This document shows, in pieces, positions 10,997-14,243 of a DNA stretch of 64,000 bases. Made by a program: the position numbers and the translations under genes. The notes below the pieces were generated by a model. The model was given only the letters and a program-made list of their open reading frames with translations, ran no database searches and was not told the DNA's origin. Position 1 is the first letter of the stretch. Each line of letters begins with the position of its first letter. Origin of the DNA: Okeanomitos corallinicola TIOX110. GTDB taxonomy: Bacteria > Cyanobacteriota > Cyanobacteriia > Cyanobacteriales > Nostocaceae. The stretch covers positions 3,451,318 to 3,515,317 of the forward strand of contig NZ_CP150886.1 of NCBI RefSeq assembly GCF_038050375.1. Direction: 5' to 3'.

Positions 10997-13180
10997 ATGG
11001 CACCACCAATTGTTAAAAAATATCTGATTGCCTTTGAAAAGTATAAATGGATTGGAATAGCTAGTTTTGTATTAGTATTATCTGGCGCAACTGTAGTAGC
11101 TTTACAACCAGAACCAGAAGATGTATTCATGATAGAAGGTGCTTTACGCTATAACATTCCACCTGTTGCCTTCTCGAAAACAGCAAGTGACATTCAGCAA
11201 CAAGGACAACAACTAACAGAACAAACTCTACTATCAGAACCAGTGATCAGAAAAGTAGTAGATACAGTACGAGTCAAGCCAGATATGTCCAAAATAAAAA
11301 TTGTCATGCCTAAGTATGATAGTAAAAGTGGGCAATTAATTAATCCTTTAATGATGGTTTACTATCAAGATAGTGATCCGAAGAGAGGCAAGCAATTTCT
11401 GGATGAATTGATGAAACAAATGGTGATATTAAGCCGTGAAATTAACACTGGCCGCTTAAATGCTATTATTAAAAAAATAGATGAACTCTTACCAAATGCA
11501 AAGAAAGAACTTCAATTAGCAGAAAATAGATTAGAACAATATGATCGTCGGGAAATGCCAGTTATCTTAGCAGCAGAAAATGGTAGTTTGCTAAGTGGAA
11601 TTAGTAGTAGTCAAAATCAACAAAGAGCTATCAAACTGACTATTTCTGGCATTAATGCTCAGATCCGCTCTTTAGAAGATAAATTGGGTTTAACAGTAGG
11701 ACAGGCCTATGTTTCTTCAGCTTTGAGTGCTGATCCTATTATCGGTAACTTGCGATCGCAGATTTACCAAGTAGAGACGCAAATAGCTACACTTCGTAAA
11801 GATTTACGTCCTGAACATCCCACCATGATTCAATTACAGCGTCAGAAAGAAGCATCAGAAGAACTGCTACAAGAACGCGCTGCGGAAGTATTGGGTGGGG
11901 GTGGTATGGCTGCACCTTTACGAGGTAATGTCACGGGTATTCGTACCCAAAGTAGTTTAGACCCCACACGACAAGCACTAGCAAACCAAATGGTGGCTTT
12001 GCAAACCCAACTAGAAACCTTGGAGCAACAACTAAAACAGCAAATTGAACAAGAGACTCAATTGCGGCAAGAATACGCTCTCATCCCTAACAAGCAATTG
12101 GAGCGATCGCGCTTAGAACAAGAGTTAGGACTCAAAAAAGCCATCCATGATCAAATGCAAGCCAAACTGATAGATGCAAAGGCAGCAGAAGCAGAAACTG
12201 TTGGTAGTCTAAACTTAGCTAAAGAAGCAATTCCCAGCGCTGTACCCAACAAACCCAAGAGTTTACCTGTTACCTTGGCTATCGGTGGTGTCTTGGGTAT
12301 TGCAATTGGCGGTGGTGTCATATTCTTATTAGGTTCATTAGAAGGTACTTTCAAGACCAGAGAAGATATCCGCGAAAGCCTCAAACAGCGGGATGTATTG
12401 CTACTGGGAGAATTGCCTTTAATACCAGTTGATGATTTAGAACCAGACACCCTACCAGTGTTACTTTCTCCCAATTCTCCTTACTTGGAGTTTTATGAGA
12501 AGTTCCGTAGTAACTTGCGGAGGTTGGGTAGTACAGATGCTAAAGTAGTATTAATCACTAGCGTTGGTAGTAAAGAAGGTAAAACAGTTAGTGCTTACAA
12601 TTTAGGTATAGCTTCAGCATTAGCTGGCAAAAGAACCCTAATTATTGAAGCAGATTTGCGATCAGCATCTCAAGCCTCATCCTTAAAAGTTACCCCTGAT
12701 TCCTATGCTGCCATCGAACCCTTAATATATTATTCCACGTTAAGTGACTGTATTCATATAGTTCCTGATGTAGAAAACCTATACATTATCCCCAGCGCAG
12801 GCCCTGTAAATCAATCTGCTGCTGTCATAGAATCTATGGAAATTAGGTTGTTGATCGAAGATGCACGTCAACGTTACGATTTAGTAATTATAGACACAAA
12901 TCCTTTAAGTATTTCCAATGATGCTCTACTCATGCAGCCTTACAGTGATGGTATTGTTTTAGTGACTCGGCCCAACTACACTCAAGAAAATATGTTAACA
13001 GAAGCCATTGATGAGTTAGTGGAAAATGAGCTAGGACTACTGGGTGCGATTATCAACGGTGCTGACATTGAAGTTCGCATACCTGCACGTTTTGAACCAA
13101 TTCATCAGCCTGAACCTGAGATTACCTTAGAGGTTATTTCAGAAGCTGAAGATATATCCACTATTTTTGGCAAGAATTAG
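10997..13180 (+). CDS. Wzc-like polysaccharide co-polymerase / BY-kinase-like protein lacking a tyrosine tail
   Basis: The 727 residues comprise a Wzz-type N-terminal segment with a first membrane helix (about 18-36), a long coiled-coil periplasmic region (160-400), a second membrane helix (about 424-447) and a cytoplasmic P-loop domain. Walker A is SVGSKEGKT ending at residue 530. The Walker A' region reads IIEADLRS (551-553 EAD, where Asp-Ala-Asp is usual) and Walker B is VIIDTNPL with Asp633. Bacterial tyrosine kinases end in a tyrosine cluster, but the last 35 residues here contain none. Autophosphorylation on the usual tail is therefore unlikely. It probably controls chain length and export with the preceding Wza-like protein. 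The gene ends just before a mobile-element footprint. Confidence 0.9.
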   Translation: MAPPIVKKYLIAFEKYKWIGIASFVLVLSGATVVALQPEPEDVFMIEGALRYNIPPVAFSKTASDIQQQGQQLTEQTLLSEPVIRKVVDTVRVKPDMSKIKIVMPKYDSKSGQLINPLMMVYYQDSDPKRGKQFLDELMKQMVILSREINTGRLNAIIKKIDELLPNAKKELQLAENRLEQYDRREMPVILAAENGSLLSGISSSQNQQRAIKLTISGINAQIRSLEDKLGLTVGQAYVSSALSADPIIGNLRSQIYQVETQIATLRKDLRPEHPTMIQLQRQKEASEELLQERAAEVLGGGGMAAPLRGNVTGIRTQSSLDPTRQALANQMVALQTQLETLEQQLKQQIEQETQLRQEYALIPNKQLERSRLEQELGLKKAIHDQMQAKLIDAKAAEAETVGSLNLAKEAIPSAVPNKPKSLPVTLAIGGVLGIAIGGGVIFLLGSLEGTFKTREDIRESLKQRDVLLLGELPLIPVDDLEPDTLPVLLSPNSPYLEFYEKFRSNLRRLGSTDAKVVLITSVGSKEGKTVSAYNLGIASALAGKRTLIIEADLRSASQASSLKVTPDSYAAIEPLIYYSTLSDCIHIVPDVENLYIIPSAGPVNQSAAVIESMEIRLLIEDARQRYDLVIIDTNPLSISNDALLMQPYSDGIVLVTRPNYTQENMLTEAIDELVENELGLLGAIINGADIEVRIPARFEPIHQPEPEITLEVISEAEDISTIFGKN

Positions 13181-13201
13181 CCCTGTCTACCACGTAATTT
13201 T

Positions 13202-13304
13202 GGCGTTGCTGATTAAGAGTATGATTTTATTTCACGCAGAGTCGCAGAGAGTAAGAGTTTCATTTTTTTGATTTTTCAATTTCATACTTCAATTAAGCAA
13301 CGCC
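13202..13304. mobile_element. MITE-like inverted-repeat element with 8-bp target duplication
   Basis: Terminal inverted repeats of 24 nt (13202-13225 and 13281-13304) match at 18 positions, both starting GGCGTTGCT on their own strand. The direct repeat GTAATTTT flanks the element on both sides (13194-13201 and 13305-13312), as expected for a target-site duplication. The 103-bp element has no ORF and carries an internal TTTCACGCAGAGTCGCAGAG phrase that also occurs, inverted, near 40763. Its right end lies inside cofG and supplies the last three codons and the stop. Confidence 0.8.
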
Positions 13305-14243
13305 GTAATTTTTAACTGCTGTAACCATTTCTTCATTCAACCAACTATAAAAATGAGGATATACAGGTAAACGTGGTACTAATTCCCATCCTGCTGTTTT
13401 TAAAATCTCCATCAGTTTGTGTTTCTGTAAATGAGGATAATCAGGGTTAACTTCATCTTTAGGACCGATTCCCCCTAAATCCCTAGCACCAGCATCTAAA
13501 CAAGCTAGTAACCAATTGTCATCTGTTACCAAGTTAGGCGGAATTTGAATGGTAATCTCTGCGGGTAAAATATTCCGTGCTTTTTCGATGAGTTTTGGCA
13601 GTAGACGAGGATCAAAAGCTTCTGCATTCAAGGTTTGTAAATTTCCAGGACTGTGGGGTTGTAATATCACTTCTTGTATATGTTTATATTGTTTGTGCAA
13701 ATCCGCAATAGCAGCTAAAGCTTGCCAGCAATCATCTTCAGTTTCTCCAATTCCCAAAAGTAAGCCGGTGGTGAAAGGAATCTGCAATTTTCCCGCCCAT
13801 TCTAACTGTTGTAAACGCACATCAGGTAATTTACTGGGTGCATGAAAATGTACGGTATTCAACAATTTGGGTGTCAACTGTTCTAACATCAAACCCATCG
13901 AGACATTGACATTTTTTAACCTTTGCATTTCCGGAAAACTCAATGGCCCAGCATTGGTGTGGGGCAAAAATCCCATTGCTAAAGCTAAAACACACAAGTC
14001 ATAAATCAGCTGAAACCAAGCTTCTCTTCTGGGTGATAAAGGATGAACCTCACCACTAAGAATGAGAATTTCACAGATACCTTGATTTTGAAGTCTTTGC
14101 AAAATACTCTCAGCTTCTAGAAGCGTTAACCATGGACTTTTACCAGGATCTGTCCGAAAATTGCAGTAGCTACACCTATTGAAACATTCATAAGTAGGCA
14201 CAATAGTATAAGCAGGGCTGTAGGTAACAATATTTTGAGACAT
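13293..14243 (-). CDS. cofG: FO synthase subunit CofG (radical SAM), C-terminus altered by an insertion
   Basis: A 316-residue radical SAM enzyme with the cluster motif CFNRCSYC (Cys20, Cys24, Cys27). CofG with CofH makes FO, the deazaflavin chromophore used by some cyanobacterial photolyases. SGEVHPLSPRREAW, PHTNAGPL, GLLLGIGETEDDC and GGIGPKDEVNPDYP are CofG-like segments. CofH is not in the window. The last residues, Gly-Val-Ala and the TAA stop, come from the terminal repeat of the small element at 13202-13304. Collapsing the target duplication would extend the frame ten residues, to a stop at 13161-13163. The core is intact, so activity is probably kept. It lies five bases downstream of trhO on the same strand. 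Confidence 0.93.
   Translation of the reverse strand: MSQNIVTYSPAYTIVPTYECFNRCSYCNFRTDPGKSPWLTLLEAESILQRLQNQGICEILILSGEVHPLSPRREAWFQLIYDLCVLALAMGFLPHTNAGPLSFPEMQRLKNVNVSMGLMLEQLTPKLLNTVHFHAPSKLPDVRLQQLEWAGKLQIPFTTGLLLGIGETEDDCWQALAAIADLHKQYKHIQEVILQPHSPGNLQTLNAEAFDPRLLPKLIEKARNILPAEITIQIPPNLVTDDNWLLACLDAGARDLGGIGPKDEVNPDYPHLQKHKLMEILKTAGWELVPRLPVYPHFYSWLNEEMVTAVKNYGVA

Follow-up and report, generated by a model that had tools for sequence, protein, structure and literature searches.

The analysed window comprises 64,000 nucleotides of the Okeanomitos corallinicola TIOX110 genome, and the locus described here is the junction between two convergent genes within it. The plus-strand gene, at positions 10997 to 13180, is predicted to encode a Wzc-like polysaccharide tyrosine autokinase (TIGR01007, 111.8 bits against a cut-off of 108). 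Facing it on the minus strand, at 13293 to 14243, is cofG, predicted to encode the 316-residue subunit 1 of FO synthase (NCBIfam NF004884, 405 bits; TIGR03550, 241 bits). At their junction lies a 103-bp element (13202 to 13304, plus strand) whose first and last 24 bases are inverted repeats at 18 of 24 positions, both starting with GGCGTTGCT. The left terminal inverted repeat (TIR; 13202 to 13225, plus strand) is GGCGTTGCTGATTAAGAGTATGAT, and the right one (13281 to 13304), read on the minus strand, is GGCGTTGCTTAATTGAAGTATGAA. Exact 8-bp copies of GTAATTTT flank the element at 13194 to 13201 and 13305 to 13312, and the right-hand copy still encodes the last native codons of cofG. A preliminary description of this DNA had given the same length, repeats and flanks, and our coordinates and sequence agree with it throughout. 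As is characteristic of a MITE, the element is short, bounded by TIRs and non-coding, with no open reading frame of its own. Its interior, CACGCAGAGTCGCAGAG, is a short heptamer-repeat motif; the CGCAGAG units of this middle section (13233 to 13257) vary in number among copies, with one extra unit in two of them (L003 and L006), and the motif also recurs at many genome sites outside the MITE.

cofG terminates inside the right TIR. Its last codons, GGC GTT GCT TAA (13293 to 13304, minus strand), specify Gly-Val-Ala followed by a stop, and all four are element DNA, as had been claimed. Removing the element together with one copy of the duplication in silico yielded a CofG of 323 residues with the tail YVVDRANSCQK, ending at a TAG (13161 to 13163, minus strand) that persists within the Wzc-like gene. 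CofG has thus lost ten native residues (VVDRANSCQK) and gained three (GVA). The preliminary description of an ancestral frame ten residues longer is right for the residues past the insertion point, but the net difference is only seven (323 versus 316).

Orthologous sites lacking the element were found in a genome of the same genus (G001; a Nostocales MAG gives the same sequence), in a second relative (G015), and in an uncultured Trichormus MAG close to G015 (L217). In each, the cofG product closes with NVYQK or NFYRK, its stop being this very TAG within the Wzc-like gene; the two convergent genes overlap by 20 bp, and the Wzc-like protein ends EDISTIFGK(N/R). The comparison is a fairly distant one, the cofG of the same-genus relative being only 81% identical to that of the window. 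Because the three relatives share this stop within the Wzc-like gene, we conclude that the insertion did separate two formerly overlapping genes, as the earlier account had proposed. That account also survived a search for the Gly-Val-Ala ending among other CofG proteins (0 of 80 relatives). In these 80 relatives the tails past the conserved RLPxY motif are mostly about 20 to 59 residues long; the window CofG, with 21, is within normal limits, close to the lower one. Since CofG tails vary so widely in length and sequence, the effect on the protein was probably neutral, and loss of cofG function is unlikely.

The element belongs to a dispersed family. BLAST searches of the genome returned at least six additional, nearly complete copies at 83-94% identity, and in a multiple alignment one of them (L003) was 98% identical to the window copy except for one 8-bp internal unit. 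Copies are bracketed by duplications of their own: automatic calling found exact 8-bp repeats of differing sequence at L002 (GATGATTT), L005 (AATATTTC) and L006 (TTTTATTG); that of L003 (AAAAAAGT) was read by eye, the automatic boundary being off at one end, and the flanks of L007 match at 7 of 8 positions. We then gathered 100 TIR pairs from this genome and its Nostocaceae relatives by their end sequences rather than their flanks, which makes the duplication test independent of the selection. An exact adjacent 8-bp repeat was present in about 30 of the 100 pairs (counted as longest repeats), whereas partner shuffling predicted 0.36, with a maximum of 3 in 1000 shuffles. Duplication lengths peaked sharply at 8, other lengths being almost absent, and the duplicated targets were 80% A+T. 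Each of the eight relatives examined for the TIR pattern had it, and 17 of 40 relatives gave MITE-like matches. These results uphold the original reading of the element as a MITE that duplicated 8 bp of its target, and with repeats at many places and empty counterparts in hand, the repeats are not confined to this locus. Elsewhere in the genome, one copy (L009; G000:C1, about 148795-148893) sits between convergent genes; their stop codons fall in the flanking repeat, at distances of 6 and 7 bases from the ends of the copy. Three short elements (L038, L042 and L058) have the same ends and other middles, with a GTTCCATGGAACGTCTC-like motif, which suggests that this genome holds several IS1-type MITE subfamilies.

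The transposase family, left unnamed by the preliminary description, is most likely IS1, judged from the ends and from the duplication length. IS1-family transposases (PF03400) were detected in 20 of 40 relatives. Complete IS1 elements of 751-792 bp, whose ends resemble GGCGTTGC and whose 8-bp duplications are exact, were delimited at five loci (L176, L179, L181, L196 and L198); both transposase halves match NF033558 (IS1 family) and occupy two frames. A frameshift is a known feature of IS1. Plasmids of Calothrix 336/3, Cylindrospermopsis curvispora and Nostoc C057 each carry a 755-bp IS1 element that has these ends and an exact duplication of 8 bp. The ends of an 896-bp IS1 element on a Geminocystis NIES-3708 plasmid (duplication AAATTTCT) are nearly those of the window element; on the left, GGCGTTGCTGATTTAAGGTATGATTT is close to the window's GGCGTTGCTGATTAAGAGTATGATTT. 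The left TIR of the window element resembles IS1-family ends, and its right TIR matches the ends of L176, L181 and L183 at 19-22 of 24 positions, versus only 10-12 for L179. The MITEs thus have ends in common with complete IS1 elements, and both make duplications of 8 bp, within the 8 to 9 bp of the IS1 family. The MITE interior could be traced to no IS1 element, so the element could have captured IS1-like ends.

No IS1 transposase was found in the genome of the window itself, either by the PF03400 search or by a protein search at E 10. Because the PF03400 search is positive for other genomes and for an E. coli control, the empty result is meaningful, and the window copy is probably stranded and immobile at present. 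TIR matches beside four genes of this genome (L031, L032, L035 and L044) had no neighbouring transposase. In the first ten plasmid regions matching the TIR alone, no transposase was initially seen between a pair of ends; Geminocystis pGM01, which is among the ten, was later recognised as an unannotated IS1 element. On the Calothrix sp. 336/3 plasmid NZ_CP011383.1, the 755-bp IS1 element (836-1590; duplication GAAAATCT) lies inside an outer element (778-1766) that has related ends and is itself flanked by an exact 8-bp repeat, AAAGTTTT, an arrangement in which an IS sits within a MITE of the same kind.

Other origins for these features have to be weighed. A chance inverted repeat beside a coincidental 8-bp repeat has in its favour only that the sequence is AT-rich; the dispersed family, the independent exact duplications and the empty sites refute it, and we give it practically no credence. 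Mobilization by an IS5-family transposase of the IS903 group, whose ends also begin GGCGTTGTTGC, is a more specific proposal, and two such elements with GGCGTTGTTGCGTGAATAGG ends were found in relatives (L144 and L145). Their end match to the MITE ceases after about 10 bases, however, and their duplication is 9 bp (TATATACAT at L145) where that of the MITE family is 8. The group is also rare, occurring in only 2 of 40 relatives against the wider distribution of the TIR pattern and of MITE-like matches, and we regard this origin as very unlikely. General DDE_Tnp_1 transposases were considered as partners as well; among 30 loci, none but IS903 had matching ends.

A further proposal, which would add to an IS1-type insertion, is that the insertion was selected for insulating the overlapping convergent genes, for example through a hairpin that ends or stabilises their transcripts. 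The element RNA does fold better than shuffled sequences (z -5.0), and several copies lie no more than 30 bp from stop codons. A consensus scan found no terminator-like site in the element, however, and these elements adjoin the 3' sides of genes only a little more often than the 5' sides (50 versus 42 for 48 elements, counts that use simple ORF calls and are only suggestive). A search of Rfam returned chance matches only. Given the variability of CofG tails, drift suffices without selection, and we consider a selected insulating role improbable.

Taken together, the sequence, the copies, the duplication statistics and the comparison of ends make us highly confident that the element is a non-autonomous IS1-family MITE that rewrote the 3' end of cofG. 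An IS1-type transposase acting in trans would have cut the two strands 8 bp apart at GTAATTTT, within the final codons of cofG, and linked the cut target to the GGCGTTGC... ends, which would have served as its recognition sites; repair of the gaps, to judge from the footprint, would then have produced the 8-bp duplication. Because the right end reads GGC GTT GCT TAA in the cofG frame, translation now ends with Gly-Val-Ala and a stop. By comparison with the empty sites, VVDRANSCQK and the old TAG were thereby severed from cofG, leaving genes that no longer overlap.

The same outcome may have arisen at other genes. A reading frame that enters the element at its right end meets a stop within seven codons whichever of the three frames it is in; at the left end, two of the three frames do so within five codons. 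The L002 copy supplies AVLN and a stop to an oxidoreductase-like gene; an ancestral end for that gene was sought in relatives, which offered only one distant homologue. In another genome (G006), a 382-residue frame has its tail provided by a related MITE (L093), which, like L002, is known from the filled site alone. By the same simple ORF calls for 48 elements, and so only suggestively, 3' sides lie nearer the element (median 59 bp versus 147 bp for 5' sides). On 8 of the 50 3' sides the stop codon is exactly 6-8 bp from the element, which places it at the margin of the duplicated target; insertion may favour A+T-rich stop-codon sites. We offer as a tentative generalization, somewhat short of an even chance, that the GGCGTTGC-ended MITEs of Nostocaceae all belong to a single large superfamily that depends on IS1 and has often persisted after its transposase was lost. 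Its right-end stops in three frames would repeatedly have given genes new 3' ends, and many "type II" orphan MITEs of these bacteria would be members.

At this locus the states before and after insertion are both resolved, and they show a bacterial MITE providing the C-terminus and the stop codon of a protein and removing an overlap between genes. The link drawn here between IS1 transposases and a class of MITEs that is abundant in cyanobacteria also makes the mobility of these MITEs testable, and IS1-type transposases have probably spread such elements through nitrogen-fixing cyanobacteria. The closest known systems are the cyanobacterial IS1 insertion sequences themselves (NF033558), which have the same ends, GGCGTTGC(T/A)(G/T)A(A/T)T...ATGA, and exact 8-bp duplications; they are about 750-900 bp long and carry a transposase, whereas the window element is 103 bp without coding capacity. 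Our literature search found no paper describing this MITE family by its ends. The 147 MITEs of Anabaena sp. 90, of 77-541 bp and in some cases interrupting genes, were termed type II because that genome had no IS with the same ends (PMC3542288); compared by description only, they are likewise small non-coding inverted-repeat elements of a Nostocales genome. The Nezha element, compared by its description in later papers (Zhou 2008, as cited in PMC10969869 and PMC3733652), is also a cyanobacterial MITE. A 187-bp MITE of Microcystis PCC 7806 resembles the window element in its 8-bp duplication and in altering genes, but its ends were assigned by the authors to ISL3 (PMC11448079), whereas those described here are of IS1 type. 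The window element is an additional IS1-type MITE, and its insertion into cofG an ordinary, known process seen unusually cleanly.
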